Below, piece by piece: positions 1 to 55,193 of a stretch of 64,000 nt of DNA (positions within the stretch are counted from its first letter, which is position 1; each line of letters begins with the position of its first letter). Source of the stretch: Methanothermococcus thermolithotrophicus DSM 2095 (GTDB lineage Archaea > AGJL01 > Methanococci > Methanococcales > Methanococcaceae); the NCBI RefSeq assembly GCF_946463545.1, contig NZ_OX296583.1:744001-808000 (forward strand), in the 5' to 3' direction. A program made the position numbers and the translations under genes. Under the pieces are notes generated by a model, which saw only the letters and a program-made list of their open reading frames with translations, was not told the DNA's origin and did not search any database.

Positions 1-1065
1 GCAAATGGAGAATCATGGGATGAAAGGAAAGAAAACGTAAAAGATGCACTGGAAAGTTCAATTCCAGGTGTAATGGTTAACAGAGAAGATATTGAAAGTG
101 TAAGAGAACTAGGAAACATATCGGTAATATCAAATGATTTAGGTGCAGATATTGTTGTAATAAACAAAAACGAAGATTTAGAAATTTTAAAGAATGCATG
201 GGAACTGGGCAAAAAGACTGGAGTCTATGTTCCTATTGAAAGTAAAGAAGATGAAGTATTTGCTTCAGAAGTTAGCAGACTCGAATACGTCAACTACATT
301 ATTTTGGAGGGAAAAGACTGGACAATAATTCCTCTAGAAAACCTCATTGCAGACTTATTTAATGAAGACGTAAAAATAGTTGCAGTAGTTAACAGCGTTG
401 ATGAAGCTGAAACATCCTATGAAATCTTAGAAAAAGGTGTTGATGGAGTCGTATTAATTCCGAAAGACACCAACGAAATCAAAGAGTTCTCAAGATTGAT
501 AGAAAAAATGAATGCAGAAAAAATAGAACTAGATGTTGCCACAATTGTAAATGTTGAACCTGTTGGAAGTGGAGACAGAGTTTGTATAGATACCTGTTCA
601 ATGATGAAAACTGGAGAAGGTATGTTAATAGGTTCTTACTCAAGAGGCATGTTTTTAGTTCATTCTGAAACTGTTGAAAACCCATACGTTTCCACAAGAC
701 CATTTAGAGTAAATGCTGGCCCAGTCCATGCATACATCCTATGCCCAGGAAATAAGACAAAATATTTAAGTGAGTTAAAAGCAGGGGATAGAGTCTTAGT
801 AATTAACAGCGAAGGAATGACAAAAGAAACAGTTATTGGCAGAGTTAAAATAGAAAAAAGACCATTAATGCTTATTGAAGCTGAATACAACGGAGACATA
901 ATAAGAACTGTACTCCAAAACGCTGAAACTATAAGGTTGGTCGGAGAAGATGGGCAACCAATATCTGTGGTAGATTTAAAACCAGGGGATAAAGTTTTAA
1001 TAAAAGCCGATGAAAACGCAAGACATTTTGGAATGGCCATTAAAGAGACTATTATAGAAAAATAG
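1..1065 (+). CDS. aroB': 3-dehydroquinate synthase II (5' end missing)
   Basis: Archaeal-type dehydroquinate synthase of the modified shikimate route: it oxidatively deaminates and cyclises the aminodeoxy-fructose-derived precursor to 3-dehydroquinate for aromatic amino acid synthesis in the cytosol. The frame is open from base 1 and reads into the ATG at 73, which is internal. By comparison with my memory of the M. jannaschii protein (about 361 residues), only about eight N-terminal residues lie outside the window. Conserved stretches seen are SGDRVCIDTCSMM, GSYSRGMFLVHSE, RPFRVNAGPVHAY and the C-terminal RHFGMAIKE. The last eight codons (KETIIEK-stop) recur downstream at 1202-1225 after a hairpin repeat. 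Family assignment is firm. Confidence 0.93.
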   Translation, partial: ANGESWDERKENVKDALESSIPGVMVNREDIESVRELGNISVISNDLGADIVVINKNEDLEILKNAWELGKKTGVYVPIESKEDEVFASEVSRLEYVNYIILEGKDWTIIPLENLIADLFNEDVKIVAVVNSVDEAETSYEILEKGVDGVVLIPKDTNEIKEFSRLIEKMNAEKIELDVATIVNVEPVGSGDRVCIDTCSMMKTGEGMLIGSYSRGMFLVHSETVENPYVSTRPFRVNAGPVHAYILCPGNKTKYLSELKAGDRVLVINSEGMTKETVIGRVKIEKRPLMLIEAEYNGDIIRTVLQNAETIRLVGEDGQPISVVDLKPGDKVLIKADENARHFGMAIKETIIEK

Positions 1066-1079
1066 GCATAATGCCAATT

Positions 1080-1225
1080 GGATCCAACTTTTTTAAAGGA
1101 GTTGGATGGAGATTGGATTACCAGTTCCTTATTAACTACTAAAAGACATTACCAAGTAAAACGGTAGTGCATTCTTTGGATCCAACCTTTTTTAAAGGTT
1201 GGAAGGAAACCATTATAGAAAAATA
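1080..1225. repeat. hairpin repeat plus duplicated gene end after aroB'
   Basis: Two related hairpins with ATCCAAC/GTTGGAT arms lie at about 1081-1107 and 1179-1202, both with A/T-rich loops of the CTTTTTTAAAG type. They are followed at 1202-1225 by a second copy of the last eight codons of aroB' (1042-1065). The two copies encode the same peptide, KETIIEK-stop, but differ at four third or stop-codon bases (AAA/AAG, GAG/GAA, ACT/ACC, TAG/TAA). The second copy is not translated as part of the gene. The layout matches the elements after the methyltransferase and carbonic anhydrase genes. Confidence 0.75.
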
Positions 1226-1274
1226 AACAAAAACTTCACTTCTTATCTTTTTTAAATTTAAAAATTAACATGGG

Positions 1275-5601: not shown

Positions 5602-5767
5602 TTTATAAAAGGCTTGGTTTTATAAGATCCTCCAACTTACATATACCTACTCAACTTCGTTGAGTAGGTATCCTATTTTGGAATCATCGAGCGAAGCGAG
5701 ATGAGCTACAAAAATCACTTCGTGATTTTTGTTCAATCCAAGCCTTTTTATAAAAGGCTTGGTTTTA
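5602..5767. repeat. palindromic element flanked by 21-bp direct repeats of a gene end
   Basis: Positions 5602-5622 and 5747-5767 are an identical 21-bp repeat; the right copy is the last seven codons or so (minus strand) of the methyltransferase gene, including its stop. Between them lie a TACCTACTCAA...TTGAGTAGGTA hairpin (about 5644-5669), the GAGCGAAGCGAGATGAGCTA hairpin, the AAAAATCACTTCGTGATTTTT hairpin, and AATCCAAGCC, which pairs with the adjacent gene end. The CTCAACTTCGTTGAG core also occurs at about 55060-55085 and 61768-61792. Confidence 0.8.
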
Positions 5768-6824
5768 AAGCTTTGGCTATGACTCTTGAAAGAGTAGGGG
5801 GAACACTTTCTCCAACTTGGTTATACTGTGACTCCCTACCACCTACAAATATATGATAGTCAGGATATCCCATTAATCTAGCTTGTTCTCTAACAGTCAA
5901 CAGCCTATCCTCATACGGATGTATAAACCTTCTTTTTCCCATCACAGTTTCAGAGATTCTATGAGGGTGTAACTTAATATAGTTGTCCAGGACACCACAG
6001 GGGCTTTTAAATTTAACCAGTCCTGAGCCATATCTAAGTTTATGAAGCCTTTTTAAAAACCTATTTGACAGGGGAGCTCCTTCATGATTTAATATATTTT
6101 TACCGATTTCCAAATCTTCAATTACCTCAATAACATATACTCTTTTTTCTGCTTTTTTTGGTTTTATTTGAACATTTGAAACAAAAACCCTTTTTCTCTC
6201 GGAAGGATTTCCATAATCTTCAGCCCATAGGGTATTGAAGTATATATCATCATACCCTACTCTCTTAAATTCTTTTTCTATACTTTCCTTTATCTCATAA
6301 CTTAGAATCCCGGGAACATTCTCCATAACAAAAACTTTTGGCTGTAAATCTCCAACTATTCTAATGTACTCGAGAACCAGCCTTCCCATCTCATTTTTAT
6401 AAAGCCTATCGATTGGATTTTTTTCTCGTTTTGGATTTGCTCCAGTGTAGGCTTCACAGGGAGGTCCTCCAATAACTAAATCAACTTCTTCGGTATCATG
6501 AACTTCTTTAATTTTTCTAAGAATGTTTAAAGAGTGAATGTTTCTTATATCATCATTTATCACTACAGGGTTCAATCTATCGTATTTGTTCAGTTTTTTA
6601 AACTCTACGATGTCTTCAGATGTTAGAAAGTCTTCCAGTTTAAAATACATGTCCTTTTGAACTAAGTTGTTATATCTCTTTTCATAGAGGACTCCGTTAT
6701 AATTTAAAGCATAAGAATTTGCGGCATTTTCATCTATCTCAATTGAAAGTAAGGGAACAAATCCTTCTTCTACAAATCCACGAGAAAATCCGCCACAGCC
6801 ACAAAATAAATCTATAAATTTCAT
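5748..6824 (-). CDS. DNA (cytosine-5-)methyltransferase, orphan
   Basis: Transfers methyl groups from S-adenosylmethionine to C5 of cytosine in DNA. Motif I is FCGCGGFS (residues 7-14). Motif IV is GGPPCE with catalytic Cys123; the usual Gln after the Cys is Glu here. Motif VI is ENVPG (168-172), followed by ERKRVF (VIII) and, near the C-terminus, QVGESVPP (motif X, normally QxGNSVPP). At 358 residues it has a compact target-recognition region. No restriction endonuclease gene is adjacent, so it is either an orphan or a remnant of a restriction system. Palindromic repeats flank it on both sides (5602-5767, 6899-6975), which fits a mobile or recently exchanged segment. Confidence 0.9.
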   Translation of the reverse strand: MKFIDLFCGCGGFSRGFVEEGFVPLLSIEIDENAANSYALNYNGVLYEKRYNNLVQKDMYFKLEDFLTSEDIVEFKKLNKYDRLNPVVINDDIRNIHSLNILRKIKEVHDTEEVDLVIGGPPCEAYTGANPKREKNPIDRLYKNEMGRLVLEYIRIVGDLQPKVFVMENVPGILSYEIKESIEKEFKRVGYDDIYFNTLWAEDYGNPSERKRVFVSNVQIKPKKAEKRVYVIEVIEDLEIGKNILNHEGAPLSNRFLKRLHKLRYGSGLVKFKSPCGVLDNYIKLHPHRISETVMGKRRFIHPYEDRLLTVREQARLMGYPDYHIFVGGRESQYNQVGESVPPTLSRVIAKALKPSLL

Positions 6825-25138: not shown

Positions 25139-26608
<1,470 letters not shown>

Positions 26609-26660
26609 TTAGTTGCCTTAAAGGCAACTACTCTCGTGGAGTACGTAAGGAATTGACATT

Positions 26661-26695
26661 GGTCGTTACTAGGTTTCACCTAGATTGTGGGCTTA
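26661..26695 (-). other. 16S rRNA processing stem, 5' arm
   Basis: Partner of 25098-25130: GGTCGTTACTAGG followed by GATTGTGGGCTTA. It lies about 55 bases before the mature 16S 5' end. Confidence 0.75.
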
Positions 26696-26760
26696 CATCC
26701 AACCTGAGCTCTTTAGTCAGGTTATCACATTTGCATAATATGACCGTGATCTGGAGTTTG

Positions 26761-26810
26761 TATTGTTTTTAGGTATGAAACAATATGTTTTAAAAAAATA
26801 TATAATTTTA
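26761..26810 (-). promoter_or_regulatory. rRNA operon promoter
   Basis: Minus strand: AATTATATAT at 26807-26798 is a TATA box placed just beyond the stop codon of the upstream channel gene. Transcription should begin near 26773. An inverted repeat, ATTGTTT ... AAACAAT (26762-26784), sits at the predicted start site. No other sequence in the 200 bases upstream of 16S looks as good. Confidence 0.5.
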
Positions 26811-26811
26811 A

Positions 26812-27831
26812 TCATTTATCATTCAATACCAACTTCTCTAAATTATCCAGTTGTTCCCCTGTTCCAAAAGCATAAATTTCATCATTTGAATTTAAGACCA
26901 CATCTGGACGAGGATTTATCACTAAATTATCACCTTTTTTAATACCTATTATTGTAGCTCCGCTTTTTTGTCTTATCTGAGTATCAGAGAGACTTTTACC
27001 AGCTATATTGGAATCTTTAGGAATGGCTATCTTTCTAATTTCCATATCTTCATTATATTCATATTTCGCAATTGACATGAATGTTGAAACAAAATCCAAA
27101 ATATCGGGTTTCAATGCCAGTTCTGCAAGCCTAAGCCCTCCAATAATATATGGCGAAACTACCTTATCAGCCCCAGCCATTAGTAGTTTATCCATCGCTA
27201 CAATTTCATCAGCTTTTGCAATAACGTAAAGCTTAGGGTTTAATCTTTTGGCAGACAGTACTATGTAAACATTATCTGAATCGGTAGGTAACGTAGATAT
27301 AAGACATTTTGCCTTACTTATCCCTGCATCAATTAAAACTTCATCCAATGTTGCATCTCCTTTAATAAAATTAAACGTCTGATCTTTTTCTAACTCATTT
27401 TCTAAAATTTCAGGGTTGTTATCGATAACCACAAAATCCACGCCCTCTTTTCTAAGTTTATTTACTACGACCCTTCCAACTCTACCATATCCACATATTA
27501 TGTAATGATCATTTAATTTTTCAATCCTATTTTTCATCTTCATCATCCATCTCGTTTTTTTAAAATGCCCTTCTATGAAAAATTCAGCAAGACTACCTAA
27601 GGTATAAAGTCCAGCACTAACACCGAATACTATAAAAACAGAAGATAGAATTTTTCCAATTTCAGTTTTTGGAGTATAATCGCCGTAACCAACGGTAGAT
27701 ATTGTGACTATTGAAAAATATATTGAATTCAATAAATCTAATCCTTCAACATTCATAATTATTAAAGAAAACATAATAATTATAATAAATATTGTAAGAA
27801 CGCCTAATTTTATTCTCTCAATGGCTTCCAT
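26812..27831 (-). CDS. TrkA-domain (RCK) potassium channel
   Basis: Two-membrane-helix K+ channel with a cytosolic RCK domain, in the MthK manner. Residues about 8-27 are the first helix, the selectivity filter TVGYGD is at 46-51, and the second helix is about 60-85. The Rossmann part follows with YIICGYGRVGRVVVNKL and FVVIDNNPE, then a TrkA_C part (IRKIAIPKDSNIAGKSL). I use ATG 27831 (339 residues; AAGGGGTACT upstream) rather than the open frame to 27846. It controls K+ flux in response to a ligand such as Ca2+ or a nucleotide, which the sequence does not identify. Confidence 0.9.
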   Translation of the reverse strand: MEAIERIKLGVLTIFIIIIMFSLIIMNVEGLDLLNSIYFSIVTISTVGYGDYTPKTEIGKILSSVFIVFGVSAGLYTLGSLAEFFIEGHFKKTRWMMKMKNRIEKLNDHYIICGYGRVGRVVVNKLRKEGVDFVVIDNNPEILENELEKDQTFNFIKGDATLDEVLIDAGISKAKCLISTLPTDSDNVYIVLSAKRLNPKLYVIAKADEIVAMDKLLMAGADKVVSPYIIGGLRLAELALKPDILDFVSTFMSIAKYEYNEDMEIRKIAIPKDSNIAGKSLSDTQIRQKSGATIIGIKKGDNLVINPRPDVVLNSNDEIYAFGTGEQLDNLEKLVLNDK

Positions 27832-27917
27832 AGTACCCCTTAACAAATATCAGATTAAAATATATTATATAATAAACATATTCATTTTTATTACTATACT
27901 ATATCAAGGGGATATAA

Positions 27918-29405
27918 ATGGAAATTGGCATATTGGATATAAAAGGCTCATTGCCTTGTTTTGAGAATTTTGGAAACTTACCTACAAAGATAATCGATGA
28001 AAACAGTATTAAGGAAATTAAAGACTTAAATATGCTTATAATACCTGGAGGAAGTTTAATTGAAAGTAAATCATTAAATGATGATTTAAAAAGATATATA
28101 ACTGAATTTGACGGTTATATAATTGGAATATGTAGCGGATTTCAGGTGTTGTCTGAAAAAATAGATATAGGTAGAAAAAGCCCAATTCCCATAGTTAAAG
28201 AGGGTTTAAGCCTATTAAATGTAGAATTTTCTCCATTAATATGTACAGATAGGGTTGAATCAAGATTAGAAAATGACTCCATCTTTGGAAACGCCGGAGA
28301 ATTAGGGCATGGATTTCACTGCCATACATACGGAGATATAAAAATAAAGGATGAAAAAACTAAAATACTAACAACTTCAAAAATAAAAAAACTAAATTAT
28401 AAGATGGTTGGCGAAAAAGAAATAATATCCGGTGTATTCTGTAAAAATGTATATGGAACCATGGTTCACGGACTTTTAGACAATATTAACATTAAGGAAA
28501 ATATATTAAAGAGTTTAAAGGTTGATGAAAACGAAAGAGAAGAAATCTATAAAAAAAATAAAGAAATTGTTGAGAAACTAAAATCTAAACGTTTGTTCAA
28601 AGATGGAGCTCCAGATGAACATGATAAATGTAGTAAATATAATAGTTCTGAGAGTGGAAAAAACGCGAAAAAAGGCATGGTACTTCTTGCCACAGGTTCT
28701 GAGAGTGGGAAAACGTTTCTTACCACAGGTTTGGTCTCAAAACTACCTGGAAAAACTTTTGTAGCTAAAATAGGGCCTGATGTAAGGGATATTGTGCCTG
28801 CACTCTATATATTGAGAGAACCTATGACTGAGTACAGCAGCATAAAAATCGCAGATAGGGGCTGGTGTAATGTTGATGACTTCTTAAAATTTGTTAAAAA
28901 TTCGGATTATAACTACTACATAGTTGAAGGAGTAATGGGAGCATTTACTGGAGCTCTGAATAAGAGAAACTACAGTGGAGCCGAAATATCGAAACTTCTA
29001 AATTTTCCAGTATATATTGTATCATCATGTAGCAAAAGTGGGATAGAAGGGGCATTTGTAGAAAGTTTAGGTTATTATTCACTATTAAAAGAAATGGGAG
29101 TTAATGTTGAAGGTATTATACTAAATAGAGTATATAACTTTGATATTTTTGAGAAGGTTAAGAGAATAGGGGATGAGCTCGGTGTTAAGGTTATAGGTAT
29201 CCGAAAAGCAGAAAATAGCAAATCTGAAAAAAGAGGTTTAATCCCTGAAGTTGAAATTGACTATGAGGAATTTTGTAGATTGACAAATAAATTAAACATA
29301 CAACTCGAAATACCGAAACTTGAATTCAATGATGTAAAAAAAGAATATAAAAGTTTTGAAGATCATTTGAAAAACTGGAGCAAAAAAATAAAGGATATTA
29401 ATTAA
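27918..29405 (+). CDS. CobQ/CobB-like protein with permuted domain order
   Basis: A 495-residue protein. Residues 1-195 form a class I-type glutamine amidotransferase domain of the CobB/CobQ kind: [13 protein letters not shown] places the nucleophile-elbow Cys near 78, and GTMVHGLL contributes the His. A charged linker follows (about 196-255). Residues about 256-495 are a CbiA/CobQ-type P-loop domain with [18 protein letters not shown] (Walker A, about 257-275), [14 protein letters not shown], and GVMGAFTG. In cobyrinate and cobyric acid synthases the order is the reverse. An amidase acting on a corrinoid or tetrapyrrole-like substrate (vitamin B12 or F430) is plausible; the exact reaction is unknown. 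Confidence 0.75.
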
Positions 29406-54168: not shown

Positions 54169-54690
54169 ATGAAAAACGAGCAAAAACTGAACAAAAACAA
54201 AAAAGCGATTTTTATAGCTCACAGTGAGATTCGCTCACTACGAATAGCAAAAAATGCGGTTATTGTTGGGGATGTTGAATTGGGTGAAGATGTAAGTGTA
54301 TGGTATGGGGCAGTTTTAAGGGGCGACGTTAGTAAAATAACGATAAAAAAAGGTTCAAACATCCAAGACAACTGTGTGATACATGGCTCAAAAGATTGTC
54401 CAACGATAATCGGAGAGTATGTGTCTATAGGCCATGGTGCAGTTGTTCATGGCTGTAAGATGGGAGATAATGTTTTAGTTGGGATGAATGCCACTATTCT
54501 AAACGGTGCAAAAATTGGAAACAACTGCATCATCGGAGCAAATGCTTTGGTTACTCAAAATAAAGAAATACCACCTAATAGCTTAGTTTTAGGAGTTCCA
54601 GGAAAGGTTGTTAGGGAGCTCACAGAAGAAGAAATAAAATCTATAAGAGAAAATGCAGTAAACTATATAAAATTATCAAAAGATTTATAA
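54169..54690 (+). CDS. gamma-carbonic anhydrase family protein (left-handed beta helix)
   Basis: A 173-residue hexapeptide-repeat protein (VGDVELGEDVSVWYGAVLRGD, NIQDNCVIHG, VSIGHGAVVHGCKMGDNVLVGMNATI, GANALVTQNKEIP). The metal His residues in VIHG, IGHGAV and VHG match Cam-type anhydrases. Homologues start near RIAKNAV; here about 25 extra residues precede this (residues 4-25), and they are encoded by a palindromic module (54184-54246) also seen in the GGGP synthase gene. An upstream ATG (54160) is followed by an early stop. Its last nine codons (54665-54690) recur at 55124-55149. Confidence 0.85.
   Translation: MKNEQKLNKNKKAIFIAHSEIRSLRIAKNAVIVGDVELGEDVSVWYGAVLRGDVSKITIKKGSNIQDNCVIHGSKDCPTIIGEYVSIGHGAVVHGCKMGDNVLVGMNATILNGAKIGNNCIIGANALVTQNKEIPPNSLVLGVPGKVVRELTEEEIKSIRENAVNYIKLSKDL
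54184..54246 (+). repeat. palindromic module inside the N-terminus of a CDS
   Basis: CTGAAC, AAAAACAAAAAAGCGATTTTT, ATAGCTCA, then CAGTGAGATTCGCTCACTACG. It has the order of the module at 2025-2082 (GAAC, hairpin, TAGCTC, hairpin). In the carbonic anhydrase frame it reads KLNKNKKAIFIAHSEIRSL, and in GGGP synthase the same start of the module reads KLNKNRRFL, that is, the frame is the same in both genes. Confidence 0.7.
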
Positions 54691-55123
54691 CCGACCCTTT
54701 TAAAAAAAGTGTTGAATTAAATGAAAACCTAACGGTTTTCATAGCTCACCAACTTCGTTGGTGATTCCAAAATCCGATACCCCTTCACGAAGTGAAGGGG
54801 TATATTTGGAAACAACCTTTTAAAAAAAGTTGGATCGAAATGATAAATACCTTTGGAATCCAAGCCTTCTCGACGAAACCTTTGGTTTCGTGAGTCCCAG
54901 CCGAGACCATAGGTCTCGTTGGACCCAGCAATTTTTAATTTGTTTGGGCAGCAAATCCGAAGGATTTGCTTCGACGACAAATCAACGATTTGTCTCGATT
55001 TTCTAAAAGGTTTGGCTTTTAATATTTACCAATTTATGGTTGGTGGGAAGTAATATATACTCACTCAACTTCGTTGGGTGGGTATCCGGTTTTGGAATCC
55101 AAACCTTTTTCTAAAAGGTTTGG
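54691..55123. repeat. 433-bp mosaic palindromic element between duplicated gene ends
   Basis: Bounded by identical 26-bp copies of the carbonic anhydrase gene end (54665-54690 and 55124-55149). Inside are GAAAACCTAACGGTTTTC-TAGCTCACCAACTTCGTTGGTG (54723-54762), TACCCCTTCACGAAGTGAAGGGGTA, AACAACC...GTTG, ACGAAACCTTTGGTTTCGT, CGAGACCATAGGTCTCG, GCAAATCCGAAGGATTTGC, GACAAATCAACGATTTGTC, CTCACTCAACTTCGTTGGGTGGG and CCAAACCTTTTTCTAAAAGGTTTGG. No gene is encoded. It lies in the gap between this gene and ribH. Confidence 0.85.
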
Positions 55124-55193
55124 ATATAAAATTATCAAAAGATTTATAATTTATAATACATATAATAAGGTAAAACCTAACGAGGATGAAAAA

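Follow-up and report, generated by a model that had tools for sequence, protein, structure and literature searches.

The end of one gene in this stretch of DNA, coding for a hexapeptide-repeat protein resembling gamma-carbonic anhydrases, stands a second time further downstream, with a mosaic of nested palindromes between the two copies, and this raises the question of how such an arrangement comes about. The stretch (the window, 64,000 nucleotides) comprises positions 744001-808000 of a genome assembled as a single contig of 1,706,496 bp with 33% GC, hereafter the host genome; genomes of relatives are labelled G003 to G019 and individual loci carry L numbers. An earlier note on the same sequence had proposed three independent cases of duplicated gene ends enclosing hairpins, two of which stand, at the carbonic-anhydrase-like gene and at aroB', while the one at a C5 methyltransferase gene does not (Table 1). 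The reading that we favour, at a probability only slightly better than even (roughly 0.55), is that short, non-coding, hairpin-ended elements spread in the Methanococcales, by strand joining or template switching, with the 3' ends of protein-coding and tRNA genes as their insertion sites.

Table 1. Features at the three loci of the window (window coordinates).
Feature	Position	Strand	Evidence or remark
aroB' (3-dehydroquinate synthase II), predicted start	73..1065	+	Pfam DHQS, 2.9e-134
End of aroB', copy 1	1042..1065	+	
First hairpin at aroB', GATCCAACTTTTTTAAAGGAGTTGG	1081..1105	+	
Passenger: last 24 nt of frhB (..IGLPVPY + stop), sequence of another locus	1112..1135	+	
Terminal hairpin at aroB', GATCCAACCTTTTTTAAAGGTTGG	1179..1202	+	Abuts copy 2 of the aroB' end
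End of aroB', copy 2	1203..1226	+	4 differences from copy 1
Repeat of one hairpin arm + 5 nt	5602..5622	.	Direct reading
Hairpin AATCCAAGCC..GGCTTGG, containing the C5 methyltransferase stop codon	5735..5762	.	Pfam DNA_methylase
C5 methyltransferase	5748-6824	-	Pfam DNA_methylase
Hexapeptide-repeat (gamma-carbonic-anhydrase-like) gene	54169..54690	+	ORF; Pfam Hexapep, 1.2e-21; 3' end is the target
End of carbonic-anhydrase-like gene, copy 1 (26 bp including stop)	54665..54690	+	Sequence identity with copy 2
Loose left part of insert, mosaic of nested palindromes	54691..55095	+	
Terminal hairpin AATCCAAACCTTTTTCTAAAAGGTTTGG	55096..55123	+	Abuts copy 2, no gap
End of carbonic-anhydrase-like gene, copy 2	55124..55149	+	Identical to copy 1

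At the carbonic-anhydrase-like gene the claim was confirmed. The two 26-bp copies are identical, end exactly at the TAA stop codon and are separated by 433 bp; within the window the only match to 54665-54690 is 55124-55149, with 0 expected in shuffled sequences. Fragments of the loose left part of this insert (54691..55095) recur about 60 times in the host genome. In the 14 relatives where the gene was found, it is accompanied by neither the repeat nor the hairpin.

The aroB' repeat is likewise real, but the second copy lies at 1203-1226, one base beyond the position originally assigned to it. The four differences between the 24-nt copies consist of three synonymous changes and a TAG/TAA exchange. 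Inside the insert lies a passenger sequence, matching at 23 of 23 positions the ends of the frhB genes (identified by Pfam) at 275058 and 576261 of the host genome, and the palindrome and hairpin that follow this tail are much like those found downstream of frhB itself. An frhB-type tail (..HRKEIGLLVPY and stop) also occurs in G006, in the insert behind the DUF1786 orthologue. The passenger is thus seen in two genera, at aroB' in one and at an unrelated gene in the other. A comparable trace is present in G009, where locus L232 contains the sequence that immediately precedes the element of L211. Since frhB tails and the L232/L211 traces are carried in this way, the left end of the element is loose and can take along sequence from a former host locus; in the host genome, passenger tails other than frhB gave only weak matches. 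The C5 methyltransferase case, by comparison, was rejected as a gene-end duplication. The 21 nt that 5602-5622 shares identically with 5747-5767 consist of 16 nt from one arm of the hairpin at 5735-5762 and 5 further nt, and the stop codon of the gene is located inside that hairpin.

Repeated gene ends were sought, as the earlier note had proposed, across the whole host genome, with genes called as long ORFs whose starts are predictions only, by comparing the last eight residues of 1620 ORFs with stop-terminated eight-residue stretches in the following 700 nt. At a score of at least 28, 14 genes have their end repeated within 700 nt downstream, compared with 0.0 in 20 permutations, so that gene-end repeats exceed chance well beyond the window. 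An ungapped DNA scan that ignored reading frame gave, at a score of at least 18, 24 tail/downstream pairs (some of them neighbouring paralogues, CRISPR or low-complexity repeats) versus 9 head/upstream pairs, the controls yielding 0 and 1. Head duplications were set aside, being few and in several instances attributable to neighbouring paralogues, CRISPR or repeats. The genes with repeated ends include those for ribosomal protein S15, frhB (two paralogues), DUF1786 and a tRNA synthetase of the asparaginyl/lysyl/aspartyl type (tRNA-synt_2). Three tRNA genes (Met, Leu and Ile) are also repeated, the second copy beginning at the T-loop or T-stem. At 884137-884560 (L051) and 963036-963303 (L055) of the host genome, units made of gene end plus hairpin, 93 bp and 84 bp long respectively, stand in tandem; these arrays were apparently amplified after insertion. 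A tandem duplication of another kind, 402 bp long and containing tRNA-Lys, a putative rRNA-like stretch and tRNA-Asp, is present at 852567-853284.

The loci share a common anatomy. Read along the gene, copy 1 is followed by a variable stretch, anything from a few nucleotides to nested palindromes, then by a T-rich run, the terminal hairpin and, with no gap, copy 2. The insert therefore lies between two direct copies of the target, each of 24 to about 80 bp; its right end is a hairpin, precise to the base, and its left end is variable. The hairpins fall into the families GATCCAAC..GTTGG, GATGCAAC..GTTGC, GATGAAAC..GTTTC and AATCCAAAC..GTTTGG, the terminal ones being summarised by the patterns GATCCAAC..GTTGG and GATG[AC]AAC..GTT[TG]C, and family hairpins number 60 in the host genome and 38 in 800 kb of G006. 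In a scan anchored on the hairpins, 21 of 28 repeats began 0 nt past the hairpin and all 28 no more than 6 nt past it, whereas the spacing between copy 1 and the hairpin ranged from 0 to 405 nt. The repeats themselves measure 24 to 82 nt and are longer in arrays. When the right flanks were compared with the left flanks of other hairpins, 0-2 repeats were obtained versus 23 with their own context. The mirror side of the hairpins yielded 5 repeats versus 23 in the host genome, where they correspond to short-insert or array loci already counted, and 1 versus 12 in G006.

The same hairpins and repeats extend to other genomes. In 800 kb of G006, which belongs to a sister genus, nine genes reach the score of 28 compared with 0.2 in controls. 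The hairpin pattern is present in 11 of 20 genomes examined, spanning five genera and two families of the order, and the same anatomy, tRNAs included, was seen in G003, G006, G008, G009, G014, G018, G019 and others. More than half of the loci fetched from hairpin matches have an adjacent repeat, including tRNA loci in G009 and G019. The named relatives with the same hairpin are Methanocaldococcus MAGs and 'Methanococci' MAGs, one MAG of each kind contributing one further repeat locus (two in total). Together with its gene content, these relatives assign the host genome to the Methanococcales. In L211 of G009 a 61-nt repeat runs from the T-loop of a tRNA to 45 nt beyond it. The youngest and cleanest insertion is L210 of G008: 32 nt (GGGTGG..GAATAA) are followed by CCTTTT plus hairpin (29 nt) and then by exactly the same 32 nt. 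Loci of this type support no simpler reading than an insertion with a long target duplication, and the first alternative of the earlier note, insertion with unusually long target-site duplications, is upheld by L210, by repeats starting exactly at the hairpin and by relatives without the insert. Such empty sites are found, at genus distance, for the carbonic-anhydrase-like gene, as described above, and for S15, whose end occurs once and without a hairpin in all 19 relatives read.

In two species of one genus the same gene is occupied at the same site (L213 of G003 and 576374 of G006), so that some insertions are inherited; DUF1786, too, carries an insertion both in the host genome (241271) and in G006 (109510). 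The GATGAAAC hairpin also occurs in other archaea, but outside Methanococci it is mostly without an adjacent gene-end repeat, and these occurrences were not taken as further examples.

The inserts are concentrated at the 3' ends of protein and tRNA genes. The host genome and G006 together have 23 primary events, of which 21 could be placed at such an end in sense orientation; two are unassigned and none is antisense (four more unassigned matches, being secondary copies in arrays, fall outside the 23). At protein genes the second boundary of the repeat lies at about -18 to +30 around the stop codon; past tRNAs it lies further out. The first seven native bases beyond the junction have G at position 4 in 19 of 25 events (P 3e-9), a purine at position 6 in 24 and A at position 7 in 21. 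The resulting motif, NNN[GC]RRA, fits 16 of 25 native targets versus 5.3% of positions in gene ends, although the P value is optimistic, since the motif was drawn from the same events and a few alignments in the host genome are one base off. Most of the tRNA T-loop sites (GTTC[AG]AA) fit the motif as well. The idea that stop-codon regions are targeted holds as regards enrichment at the 3' ends of genes and tRNAs; that stop codons as such are the target is doubtful, the fixed junction lying within the gene at a site resembling NNN[GC]RRA. Complementarity of the left flank of the element to the target, as a guide, exceeded that with shuffled targets (0 of 300) but not that with targets permuted among events (57 of 300) and is not claimed here.

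In the mechanism that we propose, a single strand ending in a hairpin would be joined, or would re-anneal, at the short purine motif. Copying or strand displacement would then fix the other boundary 24-80 nt downstream, which would make the duplication long and variable in length. Were template switching responsible, the finished hairpin could peel the strand off its donor, and no dedicated transposase would be needed. Copies that leave the gene readable would survive, with the second copy decaying thereafter. More tentatively, and at odds that we would put well short of even, this may amount to an undescribed form of transposition, in which a hairpin-ended strand enters the transcribed 3' ends of genes at a short purine motif, invariably in the sense direction and with duplications of 24-80 bp, through host replication enzymes alone or a new class of enzyme.

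A search for an engine bears on this proposal and on two alternatives. The Y1 transposase (PF01797) is absent from the host genome, G006, G008, G009 and six others, being present in 4 of 14 genomes. RVT_1 was detected in 1 of 14 genomes, that of the host, and in none of the carriers G006, G008 and G009, although a diverged enzyme could be missed. TnpB and Cas1 are both absent from G008, the genome with the youngest insertion. Neither Y1 transposase nor reverse transcriptase, TnpB or Cas1 thus fits all carriers as a common engine, unless the enzyme was lost or has diverged beyond detection. We infer from the lack of any of these four enzymes common to the carriers that template switching or joining is to be favoured. 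The inserts themselves contain no integrase and are too short to encode one, so that the other alternative of the earlier note, site-specific integration restoring the gene end, describes the outcome correctly, but a classical integrase as the agent is not supported: the mobilising integrase it envisaged is not found in the inserts, and a shared motif that is merely short, together with repeats of 24 to about 80 bp, does not suit a classical integrase.

The best placed of the rival explanations, though still an unlikely one, is that an unrecognised transposase or nuclease acts in trans, nicking NNN[GC]RRA and the other strand 24-80 nt away, the element then being a non-autonomous transposon with a wide stagger. 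The precise hairpin end, the defined target motif and the recurrence of hairpin families within and between genomes are what such an enzyme would be expected to leave; neither the left end nor the length of the duplication is fixed, however, and the enzyme distribution just described (no Y1 in the host genome, G006 or G008; no TnpB or Cas1 in G008) is also unfavourable. Less probable again is retroposition of the SINE type, in which a hairpin-ended mRNA would be copied at a nick in the target and the frhB passenger would represent the 3' end of a host mRNA. The anatomy of the ends, the sense orientation and the passenger all suit this idea, against which stands the near absence of RVT_1 from the genomes searched, the carriers G006, G008 and G009 included. 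The single protein concerned (1110 aa, at 25654-28986 of the host genome, L010:5654-8986) lacks a Pfam match at E 1e-3. It has an RVT_1 core and an apparent C-terminal nitrilase-like region, and is presumably a defence reverse transcriptase.

Comparison of the two copies bears on a further explanation, equally improbable, by which the gene end was replaced from a diverged allele, copy 1 plus hairpin being the donor sequence and copy 2 the displaced native end. Replacement of gene ends by recombination has a likeness in some fungal mitochondrial genes. This idea was considered because the differences between copies are often synonymous: 38 are at third codon positions versus 21 at first or second positions (P 0.018 relative to 1:1, the ratio expected if copy 1 is selected and copy 2 decays freely), and the S15 copies, with four synonymous differences, resemble each other more than either resembles any relative. 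The first 12 nt of copy 2 differ more from copy 1 (45/291) than the remainder does (47/768), with A to G and C to T changes predominating at the junction, and once the first 9 nt are excluded the bias is no longer significant (22 versus 16, P 0.21). Identical pairs also exist, of 26 nt at the carbonic-anhydrase-like gene and of 32 nt at L210, and replacement does not explain why the repeat should begin exactly at the hairpin. Reading frames at L204, L206 and L215 suggest that copy 1 there continues into the insert and that copy 2 keeps the older end. The fading of the bias away from the junction and the identical pairs lowered our estimate for gene-end replacement, and the identical pairs together with these three frames favour duplication in place, though a foreign donor allele may account for individual diverged pairs. 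Nested insertions next to some of the copies blur the boundaries there. Convergence of the junction bases on the element consensus was also considered and dropped (33 versus 24, not significant).

Finally, it is very improbable that no mobile element is involved and that gene ends were duplicated in tandem or terminators spread by slippage: the two tandem arrays speak for this, but the same hairpin families occur at unrelated genes with the repeat beginning at the same base, and a repeat rarely adjoins the other intergenic hairpins of the genome (17 of 596 sides, a number that includes family hairpins missed by the filter).

The insertion signature of the hairpin-ended element matches none of the standard classes, and no description of it was found in a full-text search of open-access papers. 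Like the bacterial REP, BIME and REPIN sequences, it consists of short palindromic hairpins next to genes, in many copies, in mosaic arrays and near stop codons (REP distance to the stop codon is among the matters discussed in PMC12306157). Unlike REP/RAYT systems, it is found in genomes (the host genome, G006, G008 and G009) that are missing the Y1, RAYT-type, transposase, and in the portions of the REP literature compared, duplicated gene ends next to REPs are not reported. The element also resembles MITEs in being short, non-coding and multi-copy and in having a target duplication. In MITEs the target duplications are short and fixed, and so are both ends. The element differs in its duplications of 24 to about 80 bp and in its one loose left end, variable over 0-405 nt, and it lacks two defined ends with terminal inverted repeats (MITEs are treated in the review PMC10969869). 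Mobile single or double hairpins (double-hairpin elements, RHE) have been described from intergenic regions of fungal and sponge mitochondria, as has one nad5 gene with its 3' end duplicated (PMC2800124). Those elements belong to other genomes and have other sequences, and a precise target duplication adjacent to the hairpin was not found in the parts of that description compared.

Islands and prophages that integrate at the 3' ends of genes or tRNAs likewise restore the gene end, leave a duplicate on the far side and use the T-loop position of tRNAs. The element, in contrast, inserts tens to hundreds of bp without an integrase, and hits many unrelated targets whose common feature is a short motif only. 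SINE-type retroposons share with it the precise 3' end, loose 5' end, long variable target duplication and carried sequence, although reverse transcriptase is unrecognised in most carrier genomes. Integration of the Cas1/casposon type differs in that Cas1 is absent from G008 and that the duplication lengths vary here; IS200/IS605 elements, which have a Y1 transposase and make no target duplication, differ in view of the long duplications and the lack of Y1 in key genomes.

If our reading is correct, hyperthermophilic and thermophilic methanogens harbour a widespread small mobile element that explains why their genomes contain mosaic palindromes and gene ends that are odd or extended. Compact genomes would tolerate its insertion in essential genes since the duplication keeps the gene whole. 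The mechanism is testable, because the Methanococcales include genetically tractable species.

Several further hairpins were observed in the course of this work. An exact 24-nt hairpin, GATGAAACTTTTTYTAAAAGTTTC, occurs near apparent tRNA genes in MAGs of Micrarchaeota and other DPANN archaea, mostly with no adjacent repeat (L236, L243, L253, L255, L272, L276 and others). The hairpin GATCCAACC..GGTTGG is located beside or inside CRISPR arrays near 90722, 993815 and 1417745 of the host genome. At L044 and L051 (regions of 707394 and 881512 in the host genome) there is a second hairpin type, GAAAGGGGC..GCCCCTTTTC, with a copy of the upstream gene end directly after it.
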